From a virus, in IMG/VR virus record IMGVR_UViG_3300042691_007652, positions 1-25,108 of that record: a DNA stretch of 25,108 nt. One strand, given 5' to 3'. Both the position numbers and the translations under genes were made by a program. Shown piece by piece: positions 3,189-9,434 of this stretch. Every line of letters starts with the position of its first letter. Position 1 is the first letter of the stretch. The notes beneath the pieces are model-generated. The model was given only the letters and a program-made list of their open reading frames with translations. It ran no database searches and was not told the DNA's origin.

Positions 3189-4358
3189 ATGATTACTAAT
3201 AAATACAAAATATACGTTGATATGGATGGAGTGCTTACCGATTGGGAAGATCAGTTTAAGCGCTATAGCGGTGGTATACCTGTAAATGTATATGATAACT
3301 TATATGGCAAAGCTAAGCAATATCAATTAGTAAATCAAAATAGCCCAACATATTATGCTAATATGCATTGGATGAAAGATGGCAAATTGCTTTATAATTT
3401 TATTAAAGAATTTCCACACGTAGAAATATTAAGTCATGCGCCCGATAAAAAAGCATTTATTGGAAAAATGCAATGGTTAAAAAATAATCAAGTGACTTTT
3501 AAAGCTAATCTGGTGCCTCATAGAGAAGATAAATCAAAATTTGCAAATAGTGATAGTGTTCTTATTGATGATAGAGAAGATGTAGTAAATGACTTTATAC
3601 AAGCTGGTGGTAAAGCAATATTACATAAAGATAGTATAAGCACAATAAATCAACTAAAAGAAATGTTGGGTATGAAAGAAAGTCATAGAATTTATAATAG
3701 TGTGTTGAATCCAAACATTTGGGAAACAGATAATAATATAAAGACTGATGTGCTTAATTCTCTTTTGAAAATTGCAAATACTTTCTACAAAAGCACTGAA
3801 TTAAATGTGCCATTAGAAGACGTTTATTTTCTTGGCAGTACCGCTGGTTATAATTGGACTCCTACAAGCGATATTGATCTTCATTTAGTGGTAGATTTTT
3901 CTAAAATAGGCGATAATGAAGAACTTGTCAAACAATATGTCGATGGATTAAAGTCCAAATGGAATCAATCGCATGATATTAAGATAGGAAATCATCCTGT
4001 TGAAGTTTATATACAAGATAAAAAAGAAGTTAATAAAAGTCAAGCTGTATATAGTTTGATGAAAAATCATTGGGTAAAAAAGCCAAAACATGAAGACGTA
4101 AAGATTGATAAAGACGCAATCAAAAAGAAGTATTATGAATATACAAAATACATAGATACAGCTATTTCCGAAGCTGATTTGGATAAAATTAAAAGACTAA
4201 TTAAACGTCTTTATGAGATGAGACAAGCTGGATTGGATGCATCTGGAGAATACAGTACTGAAAATTTAGTATTCAAATTATTGCGGTCAACTGGATATAT
4301 TAATAAACTACGTGATTCAGCTGATAAAATAACAGACAAAGATTTGAGTAAAATATAA
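3189..4358 (+). CDS. HAD-family nucleotidase fused to a Pol-beta-type nucleotidyltransferase
   Basis: Two enzymes in one 389-residue chain. Residues 1-160 are a HAD phosphatase of the 5'(3')-deoxyribonucleotidase type: motif I DMDGVLTDW (Asp11, Asp13), motif II LSHA (81-84) and motif IV LIDDRE (Asp127, Asp128). Residues ~170-300 are a nucleotidyltransferase with GSTAGYNW and the metal-binding SDIDLH (Gly216-Ser217, Asp228, Asp230), and a likely third carboxylate in VEVYIQ (Glu272). The C-terminal ~90 residues are charged and helical. Both active sites look intact. The nucleotidase half would dephosphorylate (deoxy)nucleotides; the transferase half would move an NMP to an unknown acceptor. The linkage suggests linked chemistry, for example removal and addition on a nucleotide or RNA end (inference). 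Leader carries a candidate promoter and repeated GCTT elements. Confidence 0.85.
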   Translation: MITNKYKIYVDMDGVLTDWEDQFKRYSGGIPVNVYDNLYGKAKQYQLVNQNSPTYYANMHWMKDGKLLYNFIKEFPHVEILSHAPDKKAFIGKMQWLKNNQVTFKANLVPHREDKSKFANSDSVLIDDREDVVNDFIQAGGKAILHKDSISTINQLKEMLGMKESHRIYNSVLNPNIWETDNNIKTDVLNSLLKIANTFYKSTELNVPLEDVYFLGSTAGYNWTPTSDIDLHLVVDFSKIGDNEELVKQYVDGLKSKWNQSHDIKIGNHPVEVYIQDKKEVNKSQAVYSLMKNHWVKKPKHEDVKIDKDAIKKKYYEYTKYIDTAISEADLDKIKRLIKRLYEMRQAGLDASGEYSTENLVFKLLRSTGYINKLRDSADKITDKDLSKI

Positions 4359-4419: not shown

Positions 4420-4911
4420 ATGGCAGAACTACTTAATCCAAACGAAATCTTTGCTACAGCTTTCGAACCAAAGGTAAAAAACAGATTCATCTTGTACGTA
4501 GATGGTATTCCATCTTTCATCATCAAGAAAACTGATCGACCAAAAGTAAGTCAAGCAGCTAAAGAATTGGATCACATCAACATCAAGACTTTCTATAAAG
4601 GAAAGAGCGTGTGGCAAACAATAACGATGGAACTTTATGATCCAATCGTACCATCCGGCGCTCAAGCAGTAATGGAATGGGTACGTTTGCATCACGAATC
4701 TGTTACTGGTCGTGATGGTTATCAAGACTTCTATAAGAAAGATTTGACCGTTAATGTTCTCGGTCCAGTAGGTGATAAAGTAGAAGAATGGAGTCTACGT
4801 GGATGCTTTATTACTGAAGCTAGCTTCGGTGACATGGATTGGAGCAACGATGGTGAAGCACTAACCATTAGTTTGACAATCCAACCAGATTATTGTATTC
4901 TCCAATATTAA
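4420..4911 (+). CDS. 19: Tail tube protein (T4 gp19-like)
   Basis: A 163-residue protein, the usual length for T4 gp19 relatives, which stack as hexameric rings to form the inner tail tube inside the contractile sheath. Recognisable features are the N-terminal MAELLNPNEIFATAFEPK, the strand pair RFILYVDGIPSFIIKKTDRP, LYDPIVPSGAQAVMEWVR in the middle and the C-terminal LTISLTIQPDYCILQY characteristic of these tube proteins. Arg is mostly CGT here, in contrast to AGA in the baseplate genes, as expected for a highly made protein. The gene stands alone in its transcript segment, with an AT-rich leader and a strong intrinsic terminator right after it, matching the need for many copies. Confidence 0.9.
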   Translation: MAELLNPNEIFATAFEPKVKNRFILYVDGIPSFIIKKTDRPKVSQAAKELDHINIKTFYKGKSVWQTITMELYDPIVPSGAQAVMEWVRLHHESVTGRDGYQDFYKKDLTVNVLGPVGDKVEEWSLRGCFITEASFGDMDWSNDGEALTISLTIQPDYCILQY

Positions 4912-4924
4912 TTTTATTACATCA

Positions 4925-4957
4925 AAAAGAACCCCAGCAGAAACGCTGGGGTTTTTC
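4925..4957 (+). terminator. Intrinsic terminator after tail tube gene
   Basis: Perfect 9-bp stem AACCCCAGC / GCTGGGGTT (4930-4938 with 4945-4953), six-base loop AGAAAC, then a run of T to 4956, preceded by A's. Confidence 0.92.
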
Positions 4958-4970
4958 TATTTATTACTAT

Positions 4971-5888
4971 ATGGATCTAGGCAAGAAAATATTCGTAATT
5001 TACCCAGGCAGATTTCATCCTTTTCATAAAGGTCATAAAGGTGTATATAACTACTTAAGTACCAAATATGGCGGTAATGATGTTTATATAACAACTACAG
5101 ATGTTGTTGAACTACCTAAATCTCCATTTACTTTTGATGAAAAAGTTAAAATGATGACACTAACTGGTGTTCCTCTTAACAAAATTATAAAAGTAAAAAA
5201 TAATTATAACCTACAAAGTTTAGTTAATCAAATCCCGATTGACATCAACAGAGACAGTGTTATATTTGCAGTTAGTGAAAAAGACATGGCCGAAGATCCT
5301 AGATTTAGTAAGTTCACTAAAAAAGACGGTTCTCCTGCTTATTTACAGCCAATTCCAAAAAGACTGGATAAGTTACAACCAGCAATTACTCATGGTTATA
5401 TAGATACAGTACCAACAACTGATTTTACTGTATTAGGCGCACCTGCTAGAAGTGCAAGTCAGTTAAGAGCACAATATGCTAATTTAACTCCTCAACAAAG
5501 AAAAGAATTTATCAAAGATTTATTCGGTAAATATGATCCAACTGTATATAACATAATGAACAATAAATTGATTAGTCCCACTCCTGCTGCTGGTTTAACA
5601 GAAAAGCAAAAGAAGCTATTAAAGAAACTGATTGTTGGAGTATTAAAAGAAGATGAAGCTAAAATCAAAAACATGAAGAAGTTGGCTGACATGGCTTTAT
5701 TTAAACAAAGACAGGCTGAAGAAGATGATGCCAATGAAAAGTTAAAATCTGCTGAAGCTCAACAAGATGCAGCCTCATCGGATGAAGATAAGAAAAAAGC
5801 CGATGACTCTGTAAAAAAAGCTAAAGACATGGTAAAACGTGCTAATCTTATGACACAGGCCGCAAAACATCAAGTACAATCGACTTAA
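4971..5888 (+). CDS. NMNAT/cytidylyltransferase-like nucleotidyltransferase with charged C-terminal tail
   Basis: The start is the ATG at 4971; a longer in-frame reading from 4893 would run through the tail-tube end and the terminator hairpin. The 305-residue protein opens with IFVIYPGRFHPFHKGH (residues 7-22), the nucleotide-binding (H/T)xGH motif of the NMN/pantetheine/cytidylyl-transferase superfamily. SASQLR at 161-166 stands where ISxTxxR usually lies. Substrate could be NMN (NAD synthesis, as in some large phages) or another phosphorylated compound; sequence alone does not decide. From about residue 205 follows a Lys/Glu/Ala-rich, probably coiled-coil extension of 100 residues unlike a free metabolic enzyme. 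It sits between tail tube and baseplate genes, so it may be virion-associated (inference). Confidence 0.75.
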   Translation: MDLGKKIFVIYPGRFHPFHKGHKGVYNYLSTKYGGNDVYITTTDVVELPKSPFTFDEKVKMMTLTGVPLNKIIKVKNNYNLQSLVNQIPIDINRDSVIFAVSEKDMAEDPRFSKFTKKDGSPAYLQPIPKRLDKLQPAITHGYIDTVPTTDFTVLGAPARSASQLRAQYANLTPQQRKEFIKDLFGKYDPTVYNIMNNKLISPTPAAGLTEKQKKLLKKLIVGVLKEDEAKIKNMKKLADMALFKQRQAEEDDANEKLKSAEAQQDAASSDEDKKKADDSVKKAKDMVKRANLMTQAAKHQVQST

Positions 5889-5937: not shown

Positions 5938-6750
5938 ATGAGTGACGAAATTATAATTACACGAAATTCTGTACCAAAAGATACACAACCAACTGCCTAT
6001 CCATCTGAACGAATTGACTTGCCTAGTAAAGGATACTTTTATTCAGATAGCGATCCACTAAGTTTGGGGTACGTGGACATGAAGATGATGACTGCTAAAG
6101 AAGAAGATATTCTAACCAGTCAAAATTTAATTAAGAAGGGTGTTGTATTAGACAAGTTACTCGAAAGTTTGATCATAACTCCAAATGTAAATGTAGATAA
6201 CCTTTTGTTGTGTGATAAAAATGCTTTGTTTGTTGCGGCGAGACGATTGGCTTATGGAGACAATTATGGTCCCGTACAAATTAGATGTCAGAAGTGTTAT
6301 GAAGAATCTAAACAAGTTGTTAATTTGGGAGATCTAAATGAAAAACCATATAACTTTGATAAAGTACAAAAAGGCAGTAACCAATTTGAATTTCAGTTGC
6401 CATATTCTAAAAAAACAGTTGTATTTAAATTATTGAACTCAAAAGATGAAACCGATATTGATGGTGAGTTAAAAGCAACTGCAAAGTTTGTAAAATCTGG
6501 TGGTAGCACTGAAATTACTACACGATTGAAGAAAATGATAGTAGCTATTGATGGAAAAGCTGATAGAGCTACAGTCAATAAATTTGTTGACAATGAATTG
6601 TTATCTAAAGATAGCATGGCATTGCGATCTTATGTTCGTGAGATAACTCCAGAATTAGACATGACTTTCAACTTTAACTGCCCAAATTGCAGCAATGGAG
6701 AAAGGATGGATGTACCTATGACGGTACAGTTTTTTTGGCCTGAGTCCTGA
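5938..6750 (+). CDS. 26: gp26-like baseplate hub / tail assembly protein
   Basis: A 270-residue protein like the gp26 baseplate-hub subunits of T4-like phages (T4 gp26 itself is about 208). Seen: IDLPSKGYFY (26-35), the conserved MTAKEEDILTSQNLIKKGVV (51-70), LDKLLESLI, and two CxxC knuckles, Cys117/Cys120 and Cys248/Cys251, that probably bind one zinc. It ends in MTVQFFWPES at a TGA, just after a run of seven T. Position directly before the gp51-like gene and the tape measure is that of the tail assembly chaperone pair in most long-tailed phages. A +1 (or -2) slip on the T run would fuse it to the downstream gp51-like frame (see that entry). The leader has two GTTATAAAG-like repeats and no Shine-Dalgarno. 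Confidence 0.8.
   Translation: MSDEIIITRNSVPKDTQPTAYPSERIDLPSKGYFYSDSDPLSLGYVDMKMMTAKEEDILTSQNLIKKGVVLDKLLESLIITPNVNVDNLLLCDKNALFVAARRLAYGDNYGPVQIRCQKCYEESKQVVNLGDLNEKPYNFDKVQKGSNQFEFQLPYSKKTVVFKLLNSKDETDIDGELKATAKFVKSGGSTEITTRLKKMIVAIDGKADRATVNKFVDNELLSKDSMALRSYVREITPELDMTFNFNCPNCSNGERMDVPMTVQFFWPES
6727..6739 (+). promoter_or_regulatory. Candidate programmed ribosomal frameshift site (seven T)
   Basis: CAG TTT TTT TGG in the gp26 frame. A Phe-tRNA on TTT can re-pair after a +1 or -2 slip because all positions are T. The shifted frame reads FFGLSPEYRLHLHEQIF without interruption into the gp51-like protein. The frame behind the slip is closed upstream by a TGA at 6719-6721, and has no ATG before the conserved residues. 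Confidence 0.55.
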
Positions 6751-6757
6751 GTATAGA

Positions 6758-6955
6758 TTGCATCTCCACGAACAAATATTCCAGTTAAGTTACTTTTCCA
6801 ACGGAGCAGTAAATGTAAATATTGCGTATAATCTGCCTGTACATTTACGTAATTTTTATTATAGTCAACTTGTTAAATTAAAAGAACAAGAGAACCAGTC
6901 ATATGAACGTTCGTCTACCCCTCCTAAAAAAAGCAAGGTAGATAAACCACTCTAA
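6758..6955 (+). CDS. 51: gp51-like baseplate hub assembly protein (possibly made as a frameshift fusion)
   Basis: Sequence from the only in-frame start (TTG at 6758) is 65 residues: LHEQIFQLSYFSNGAVN, YNLPVHLRNFYYSQLVKLKE and a basic Ser/Pro/Lys tail. This resembles the small gp51-type hub assembly proteins of marine T4-like phages. The match appears to continue upstream of the TTG: codons 6731-6757 read FFGLSPEYR in frame, so the TTG start would cut off a seemingly conserved N-terminus, and no Shine-Dalgarno supports it. The simplest reading is a gp26-gp51 fusion of about 338 residues made by a +1 slip, with 72 residues contributed by this frame from 6737. Alternatives: TTG initiation, or a homopolymer sequencing error hiding an uninterrupted gene. 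It lies 34 bases before the tape measure. Confidence 0.65.
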   Translation: MHLHEQIFQLSYFSNGAVNVNIAYNLPVHLRNFYYSQLVKLKEQENQSYERSSTPPKKSKVDKPL

Positions 6956-6989: not shown

Positions 6990-9434
6990 ATGGCAGATAA
7001 CATCATAGACCAATTAAAGGCTTATCAAGAAGCCCAAGATGCTACAAGAAGAACCGCCGATGAAATTCAGAGAGAACGCAATCTTTTGAAAGAGGTTTCT
7101 TCTTTAGCAAAAGCTATTAAAATTGAATTTAATGATGTAACAAAAAATATCGGTAAATCTGTAGAAAATTTAGAACTTGGCTATGAATTAGAACAAAAAT
7201 TAAGAGATTCTGCTTTTGATCGTTCCTCATTGCAAAATAATTTACTTTCATTGATGAAAGAAACTGTTCAACAAGATAAACTAGTTGCGGAATTAGCTAG
7301 AGTGAATAGTTTAACACAAAAAGAAAGAAATGCCGAAGCCAGATTAGAAAAAGCAAATTTAGATGCTAAATTAGCAACTGGCGAAATAGAAGCACAACAA
7401 CATGCGGCTGCTCTGCAATTTTTACAGAAAAAATATTTACGAACAAACGAAACATATAGTAAAGAATTGCTATCGGTCAATAGATTAAGTCAACAGTTAG
7501 TAAACACAAAAGATTTATTGAATGTTGAAGATAAACGTCTTGCTAAATTAACAATACAAAATAACTTTCTTGGTTTAGGAAAAAAAATACTAGGCGACAT
7601 GGGTCCACTTGGATCCGCTGTTTCTGGTGCTTTCAATGCTTCTAAAATGAATCCTTGGGTATTATCCGCTAACACCGCATTAGCTATATTTGAAAAAGGT
7701 TACGAAAATTTTAAAGCATTTGATAAAGCATCCGCATCTTTAAGATTAAATTTAGGAATTTTGCCTGGCCAGGCTAATAAACTTGAAACGACTCTTAGAG
7801 ATGTATCTATAGATATGATGCATATTGGTGCCACATTTGACGATGTAGTCAAATCCGTGACATCAATATCAAATGCGTTTGGATCTTTAGTTGCTCGTGA
7901 CGCTGATCTATTAAAAACGACAACCGCATTTTCAAAACAATTTGGTATAGCCGAAGATACATCGGTTAAGTTTTTAGAAACACTTGGCGGTATAGCCGGA
8001 AAATCCGCAAAATCTCAGTTAGCTATGACTGGATTTGCTCAAAAAATTGCACAAGCATCTGGCGTTCCACTTGGAAAAATAATGCAAGATGTTGCTGATG
8101 CTAGTGACGATGTTAGAGTATACGTTGGTAATTCTGCTGTATCCATGATTAAAGCTGCGGCAGCTGCAAGAATGATGGGCATTGATTTGAATAAAGCCGC
8201 AGCATCGGCAGACAAACTACTACAGTTTGAAAGCAGTATTTCATCTGAGTTAAAAGCTAGCGCTTTGTTGGGTCAAAACGTCAACTTTAATTATGCTCGT
8301 CAGTTAGCTTTTAATAAAGATATAATCGGGGCTAATAAAGAAATATTAAAGATATCTAAACAGGTTAATTTCAATCAGTTAAATCCAATTCAACAAAAAG
8401 CATTCGCGGATGCTGCTGGTAAGAGTGTAAGTGAATTGCAGTCGATGCTTCAACAAGAAAAGAATATTCAACTTGTTAAAAATGGTACCAACAAAGAAGC
8501 AAAAGCTGCGTTAGCTGAATATGATCGATTGATGAAACTCAAAGATGATGAAGCTAAAAAAGAGGGAGAAATAGCAGAAAAACAAGCTATACAAGCCGCT
8601 AATCAAGCTAGAATGGAAAGATTGCAAAATGAGTTTAATAAGTTAATGAGTGAGTTAGCTAAACCTGTTATGGCAATATTGAATCCACTAGCAGATTTAG
8701 CGATTATATTATTGCCTAAAATAACAGAAGGAATGAAACATTTTGGTGCTTTCTTAAAACCAATAGGAAATGTTTTAATTATGTTGGCCGATAAAATGTC
8801 ACTTCGATTTTTGTCTCCGTTATTGAGAGGCATCGGAATATTCTCAAGATTTTTAGGACCAATAGGAGTTATAGTAAATTTATTTTCGTTTATTACATCA
8901 TTGATGAAAAGATGGGAAGAAACGCCCGATGGAATATTGGGCGGATTACAAGCCATAGGTGGTGCTTTATATGATACACTATTAAAACCATTTGTCGATG
9001 TATACGATTGGATAATGGATAAACTGGGCGGAAAATCTCCATCTGAAATAGGACTTTCTATAGTAAAAGGCCTAGTTTCTGTAAGTGGAATGATATTGGA
9101 TGCTTTAACTAGACCATTTATAAAAGGTTATAATTTTATATCAAAATACATTCCAGGTGCATCTGAAATGAAAATGCCCAGTGAAGTTTTATCTGATATA
9201 ACTGGGGATGCGAAGAAATCTAAAGAAACTATCAATGCATCCGCCGGCGAAGGTAATTTACTACAAACAATTCAAGCTGGCAATCAACAATTAGCTCAAA
9301 AGCTTGATACTTTGATCAATCTAATGGCTAATGGTGGTATTGCTGTAAATCTTGATGGTCAAAGAATTAATGCTGCTTTATCTACGTCGATGTTAAAATC
9401 AGGTGGATTTGGACAAGCAACAACTAGAGCTTAA
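6990..9434 (+). CDS. Tail tape measure protein
   Basis: At 814 residues, the longest helical protein of the tail block, placed right after the chaperone-like pair, as tape measures are. Residues 1-190 are charged heptad-like helices rich in Glu/Lys/Gln/Leu. Ala/Gly-rich helices follow to ~480 (PWVLSANTALAIFEKGYENF at 222-241), a charged coiled coil lies at ~500-555, and hydrophobic stretches at 558-578, 590-600 and 605-640 could cross or sit against a membrane on DNA ejection. The end, IAVNLDGQRINAALSTS and then GGFGQATTRA, is typical of tape-measure C-termini. At ~0.15 nm per helical residue the chain predicts a tail of up to ~120 nm, a little longer than T4 (gp29, ~590 residues). A TATTTATA box lies in its leader. 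Role is sure from composition and place; sequence family less so. Confidence 0.85.
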   Translation: MADNIIDQLKAYQEAQDATRRTADEIQRERNLLKEVSSLAKAIKIEFNDVTKNIGKSVENLELGYELEQKLRDSAFDRSSLQNNLLSLMKETVQQDKLVAELARVNSLTQKERNAEARLEKANLDAKLATGEIEAQQHAAALQFLQKKYLRTNETYSKELLSVNRLSQQLVNTKDLLNVEDKRLAKLTIQNNFLGLGKKILGDMGPLGSAVSGAFNASKMNPWVLSANTALAIFEKGYENFKAFDKASASLRLNLGILPGQANKLETTLRDVSIDMMHIGATFDDVVKSVTSISNAFGSLVARDADLLKTTTAFSKQFGIAEDTSVKFLETLGGIAGKSAKSQLAMTGFAQKIAQASGVPLGKIMQDVADASDDVRVYVGNSAVSMIKAAAAARMMGIDLNKAAASADKLLQFESSISSELKASALLGQNVNFNYARQLAFNKDIIGANKEILKISKQVNFNQLNPIQQKAFADAAGKSVSELQSMLQQEKNIQLVKNGTNKEAKAALAEYDRLMKLKDDEAKKEGEIAEKQAIQAANQARMERLQNEFNKLMSELAKPVMAILNPLADLAIILLPKITEGMKHFGAFLKPIGNVLIMLADKMSLRFLSPLLRGIGIFSRFLGPIGVIVNLFSFITSLMKRWEETPDGILGGLQAIGGALYDTLLKPFVDVYDWIMDKLGGKSPSEIGLSIVKGLVSVSGMILDALTRPFIKGYNFISKYIPGASEMKMPSEVLSDITGDAKKSKETINASAGEGNLLQTIQAGNQQLAQKLDTLINLMANGGIAVNLDGQRINAALSTSMLKSGGFGQATTRA

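Follow-up and report, generated by a model that had tools for sequence, protein, structure and literature searches.

The window, by which we mean the whole 25,108-base stretch analysed (a virus record with its class assigned by IMG/VR), carries on its plus strand a gp26-like gene and a gp51-like reading frame between a tail tube gene and a probable tape measure gene. The tube gene (gp19-like; 4420..4911, +) matches PHROG 4542, tail tube, at E=1.6e-29, and PF06841 at E=2.3e-5, which is below cutoff. The gp26-like ORF (5938..6750, +; 270 aa, with the C-terminal end FFWPES) matches PHROG 150, baseplate hub, and PF12322 (T4_baseplate) at E=6.8e-12, its 46.0 bits against a curated cutoff of 24.5 making it a member of that family. 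The 814-aa ORF at 6990..9434 (+) is probably the tape measure protein, judging from its position directly downstream, its length and its composition; the annotated tape measure genes of the loci L022, L025 and L229 have the same position, and in all three the order tube, gp26-gp51, tape measure is found with annotated genes. This ORF had no family match among the PHROG and Pfam profiles and a weak pairwise match to L022. The sequence-only reading of the window had placed a frameshift just before the tape measure, as in other phages, and this stands to the extent that the tape measure, assigned by position, is probable. Between the tube gene and gp26, within the tail cassette, lies a cytidylyltransferase-like (nucleotidyltransferase-like) protein (4893-5888, PF01467). 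Upstream of the tail genes are a glycosyltransferase group 1 gene (1809-2831, PF00534) and, at the window edge, a collagen-like repeat protein (12-1514; PF01391, E=7e-27) that is probably a fibre or surface protein.

The gp26-like ORF ends in CAG TTT TTT TGG CCT GAG TCC TGA, the first four codons occupying 6727-6738 and the TGA (6748..6750, +) ending the short product. The putative slippery run TTT TTT T (T7; 6730..6736, +) is the sole run of at least seven T on the plus strand of the window. In the +1 frame, which a TGA (6719..6721, +) closes 5' of the site, the gp51-like C-domain (6737..6955, +; 72 codons and a stop) is open until the TAA at 6953-6955; the frame contains no ATG or GTG, and its sole ATG/GTG/TTG triplet is the TTG at 6758. 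When we re-checked the sequence, the T7, both stops and the lack of an ATG were all as the sequence-only reading had placed them, and the fusion of about 338 residues that it foresaw agrees with the 266 + 72 = 338 aa predicted for a +1 slip (339 aa for a -2 slip). A canonical -1 site (X_XXY_YYZ) was considered for the window and rejected: a G precedes the run, whose first T is in codon position 1, and the -1 frame runs into a stop after two codons.

Conservation of the site and of the +1 frame

Loci retrieved at the protein level by several searches were combined with MAG and cultured-phage loci and clustered at 90% identity into 278 gp26 clusters; one retrieval search used a protein pattern with FFWP, which fixes the amino acids and leaves the codons free. 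The contig search gave 16 loci, all in MAGs and several of them Flavobacteriales, and among cultured phages such a site was found in Microcystis phage Mel-JY01, Flavobacterium phage immuto and Rhodothermus phage RM378. IMG/VR relatives whose protein identity ranges from 95% to about 30% keep the T run, the +1 protein and the frame offset. The site is spelled TTTTTTTGG in 233 clusters, TTTTTTTAC in 17, TTTCTTTGG in 12, TTCTTTTGG in 9 and otherwise in 7, and the second codon of the Phe-Phe pair is YTT before a T in 275 of the 278. Where this second codon encodes Phe it is TTT in 262/264 clusters, against 0.783 TTT elsewhere in the same genes (p=2.9e-25), and 267/278 of the first Phe codons are likewise TTT (p=4.6e-17); these p-values count clusters as independent and are weakened by shared descent, the second-codon signal standing at p=2.7e-5 with clustering at 50% (50 clusters). 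Judging from this codon usage, the slippery sequence is under codon-level selection.

A +1 ORF of at least 45 aa is present in 268/270 complete cases, compared with a -1 ORF in 22/270. Comparison with related sequences gave a dN/dS of 0.03-0.19 in the +1 frame and of about 0.7 or more for the same bases in the other frames; by this measure the +1 protein is under purifying selection. Its conservation starts exactly at the slip, with GL[ST]xEY. Comparative evidence of this breadth bears out the earlier claim of a programmed frameshift joining the gp26-like and gp51-like proteins, and the alignment of homologous junctions then proposed shows a conserved T run and a frame offset, with no ATG upstream of the site in the +1 frame of 227/278 clusters. 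A scan with the 14-mer TTTTTTTGGCCTGA that ignored the protein returned 120 stretches; 114 contigs carried it at the gp26 C-terminus, 112 of these with a +1 ORF of at least 40 aa and the other two with 31 and 5 aa. The search thus returns almost exclusively the gp26-gp51 junction, which makes the 14-mer a practical marker for it.

It could be argued that gp51 is translated separately, by ribosomes that either start at a non-AUG codon or reinitiate once they have terminated at the gp26 stop, as the TTG at 6758 is present in the window and its close relatives, an ATG stands in the gp51 frame of one locus (L021) and another follows shortly after the slip site in cyanophages. However, the TTG is not conserved, being absent in L007-L012, the +1 frame of 128/278 clusters contains no ATG, GTG or TTG on the upstream side of the site, and few clusters have such a codon just after it in the gp51 frame. 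Separate translation would also leave the selection on synonymous Phe positions unexplained, and the conservation of the +1 protein begins at the slip itself. We consider it very unlikely. That the arrangement is a sequencing error or a decayed gene has a negligible probability; homopolymers are error-prone and MAG and IMG/VR contigs are unfinished, but hundreds of independent assemblies agree with three groups of cultured phages and purifying selection is strong; for practical purposes this explanation is refuted.

Probable direction of the putative slip and loci that do without it

Our interpretation, to which we give a probability of about 0.85, is that the locus would encode a two-form tail assembly chaperone, short and long, by +1 ribosomal slippage at YUU_U. 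Both forms would arise from one start codon. The majority of ribosomes would follow the gp26 frame to the TGA at 6748 and produce the 270-aa short chaperone. In a fraction of ribosomes, whose P site would hold peptidyl-tRNA-Phe on UUU 6733-6735 while UGG occupies the A site, a one-base forward slip would let the tRNA-Phe re-pair perfectly with UUU 6734-6736 as GGC 6737-6739 enters the A site, and reading on through the C-domain would give the gp26-gp51 fusion. The efficiency of the slip would presumably be low. Upstream of the site, anti-Shine-Dalgarno pairing was equal to the control, structure downstream was weak, and the search found no stimulator; nearly all members have TGG, TAC or TTC as the A-site codon.

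A -2 slip of the kind used by phage Mu, with the P-site tRNA-Phe moving back two bases, could also produce the fusion, with one extra Phe. On the T7 it too would re-pair perfectly, and the window alone fits +1 and -2 equally; moreover, the first Phe codon is TTT above background, and its over-represented third-position T is not needed for a simple +1 slip in the P site. It is the natural variants that separate the two directions. In the nine independent clusters with TTC-TTT-TGG, a -2 slip would put the tRNA-Phe on TCT, and yet the +1 ORF is kept in all but L339; the 12 clusters with TTT-CTT-TGG resemble the prfB +1 site CUU_U, and over both variants the +1 ORF is kept in nearly all. The same variants bear on RNA polymerase slippage, which is known at homopolymers and could act on the T7 to give transcripts with six or nine U. 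Most members do have the homopolymer, but the T runs of the two variants do not exceed four, and the arrangement is still kept. As the variants exclude both perfect -2 re-pairing and homopolymer slippage, a +1 slip on YUU_U is the best supported; we regard the -2 slip as unlikely and polymerase slippage as highly improbable.

The natural variants thus argue strongly for the +1 direction. What members with a +1 ORF share is a P-site YUU_U; only L021, with an ATG of its own, is an exception. The seven-T slip of the sequence-only reading was therefore right in putting the slip at the T run and too strict in its seven T, as natural variants keep only YTT-T. For the window, a +1 slip predicts the junction peptide MDVPMTVQFFGLSPEYR, with two Phe, and a -2 slip MDVPMTVQFFFGLSPEYR, with three (QFFFGLSPEYR).

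Four loci (L016, L017, L339 and L341) lack the slip and the +1 ORF. In each, a second gp26 paralogue lies directly downstream and is fused in frame to the same gp51 domain, which the gp51 profile matches at E 4e-18 to 2e-23, the tandem paralogues occupying 2905-4670 in L016, 1384-3176 in L339 and 1330-3139 in L341, and being present also in L017. The first gp26 copy is spelled TTC-TTC in L016, L017 and L341, the only loci with TTC-TTC-TGG, and TTC-TTT in L339, and in L021 (TTTCTATTC), where the gp51 frame has an ATG, the site reads TTT CTA TTC. Thus, where the long form is supplied in another way, the slippery spelling has mostly been lost. The four with a fused duplicate in place of frameshifting are, as far as their gene arrangement tells, a natural control.

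Probable chaperone identity of the two predicted products

Position, domain homology and, more tentatively, fold support the assignment of gp26 as the short (TAC-N, G-like) chaperone and of gp26-gp51 as the long one (TAC-NC, GT-like). The short form was modelled with AF2 (pLDDT 91), and the best PDB relatives of the model were two tail assembly chaperones, YqbN (3klu, Z 5.4, rmsd 4.8, 87 aligned) and HK97 gp13 (2ob9, Z 5.1, rmsd 4.4, 81 aligned); scores of 5.1-5.4 are middling, with the next PDB rows at Z 3.8 and 3.2, and these matches support, rather than prove, a chaperone fold. A Foldseek search of the short form against PDB gave no significant match (HK97 gp13 at E 2.1), and a PDB sequence search with the gp26 and gp51 profiles gave nothing relevant. 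The long form was represented by a model of the in-frame fusion that L016 carries naturally, and VIA-align of this model found no convincing relative for its C-domain. Known chaperone folds align to gp26 residues 17-111 in the window model but to fusion residues 127-199 in the L016 model. One possible reading of the models is that the chaperone fold may occur twice in gp26, on either side of a zinc ribbon.

The C-domain had no match in Pfam or PHROGs. By hhalign, the C-domain of the window matches cyanophage gp51 at 69%, and cyanophage gp51 matches residues 209-245 of T4 gp51 at 67%; no direct match of the window C-domain to T4 gp51 was found, and the gp26-like family profile matches T4 gp26/gp51 weakly. 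The small ORF of the window would therefore be the counterpart of the 63-aa cyanophage gp51 and, by this two-step comparison, of the C-terminal part of T4 gp51, and not of the whole 249-aa T4 protein. In lambda, the short form coats the tape measure and the extension recruits the tube protein (PMC5009743). If the two forms predicted here act like lambda gpG and gpGT, both would bind the tape measure protein, the C-domain would recruit the tube protein, and both would then leave the tail.

Other solutions in T4-like phages and known frameshift systems

T4 cannot frameshift here, its genes 26 and 51 being on different strands. Frameshifting is reportedly conserved in several T4-like groups, with T4 using separate genes 26 and 51. 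The 249-aa T4 gp51 looks, from its sequence, like a full-length long form, its last ~40 residues matching cyanophage gp51, and with a separate gene 51 that ends in this way T4 is comparable to the duplicate-bearing loci. Cyanophages (Sf-FS3-like) resemble the window in a gp26-gp51 frame change at the same Phe-Phe codons and differ from it in having gp51 in the -1 frame and with an ATG; the canonical heptamer T_TTT_TTC is present in 20/20 cyanophage clusters (the chance of TTC in all 20 is about 4e-11). In L236-L315 and L233, the cyanophage gp26 ends in T_TTT_TTC and gp51 is open in the -1 frame from there; in Sf-FS3 it is annotated as a separate gene. The jumbo phages PA5oct and RAS14 have the same two proteins and the same Phe-Phe codons as the window, but gp51 in the -1 frame. 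In Pseudomonas phage PA5oct (L231, 3286-3519) a 78-codon -1 ORF without ATG, GTG or TTG follows gp26, and in Stenotrophomonas phage RAS14 (L235, 3229-3483) the -1 ORF after gp26 has no start near the site. Both ORFs, at present unannotated or mis-started, probably encode -1 frameshifted long chaperones. The huge phage LR756511 (L023) has a gp51-like -1 ORF at about 3672-3941, after GGT TTT TTC at the gp26 end and with an ATG at the gp26 stop, which makes it a possible -1 member.

We lean towards an evolutionary pathway in which one ancestral Phe-Phe site would have switched direction within one family. A very large uncultured clade and RM378 would have the +1 state at YUU_U, and cyanophages and jumbo phages the -1 state at U_UUU_UUC; the site would also have been replaced more than once by an in-frame fused duplicate (in T4, and separately in L016/L339/L341), and the +1 state would be the first in T4-like phages. 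The group with the putative +1 site is a very large one of mostly uncultured T4-like phages, and the present annotation of its cultured members misses the predicted long form. With hundreds of T4-like relatives having an apparent frameshift at gp26/gp51 and others a fused duplicate, the role of gp26/gp51 becomes directly testable.

According to PMC5009743, T4 is the exception to a wide conservation of G-T frameshifting, and tailed phages use slips of -1, -2 and +1. The T4-like tail assembly chaperone genes were identified by Vladimirov, Gautam & Davidson 2022 (Virology 566:9-15, as cited in PMC10885494 and PMC12846349), and papers citing that study describe a short gene with a separate fused gene in some T4-like phages (PMC10885494) and polyT -1 sites (PMC12846349). 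The link of gp26/gp51 to the chaperone class, which the sequence-only reading had put forward and which our comparisons support, was thus already published, as were -1 polyT sites in T4-like phages, going by these citing papers. What looks new is the +1 YUU_U form in T4-like phages, its breadth, the direction switches and the occurrence of -1 sites alongside it within one family, of which we found no description.

The chaperones of genes 26/51 in T4-like phages share with the window the homologous gp26 family (PF12322), the C-domain and the short and long forms, and differ in their -1 polyT signal, as the citing papers give it, compared with +1 YUU_U. Lambda gpG/gpGT has the same order of tube, short chaperone, frameshifted extension and tape measure, and its C-domain too is reached by frameshifting only, but the slip is -1 and no sequence similarity to the window was found. 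In phage Mu the +1 frame is likewise accessed at the chaperone gene, by a -2 slip (PMC5009743); a Mu-type slip for all members was rejected on the nine TTC-TTT-TGG clusters, while the window alone is compatible with it. HSTV-2, an archaeal myovirus likened here by description only, also uses the +1 frame at its chaperone gene, very likely by a +1 slip (PMC5009743). A site of the prfB (release factor 2) type, CUU_UGA, was rejected as such, since prfB has a stop in the A site, whereas the window family has UGG or UAC there and no upstream Shine-Dalgarno enrichment. The likeness to prfB lies in the P-site tRNA moving forward from YUU onto UUU, and the variant TTT-CTT-TGG reads CUU_U.
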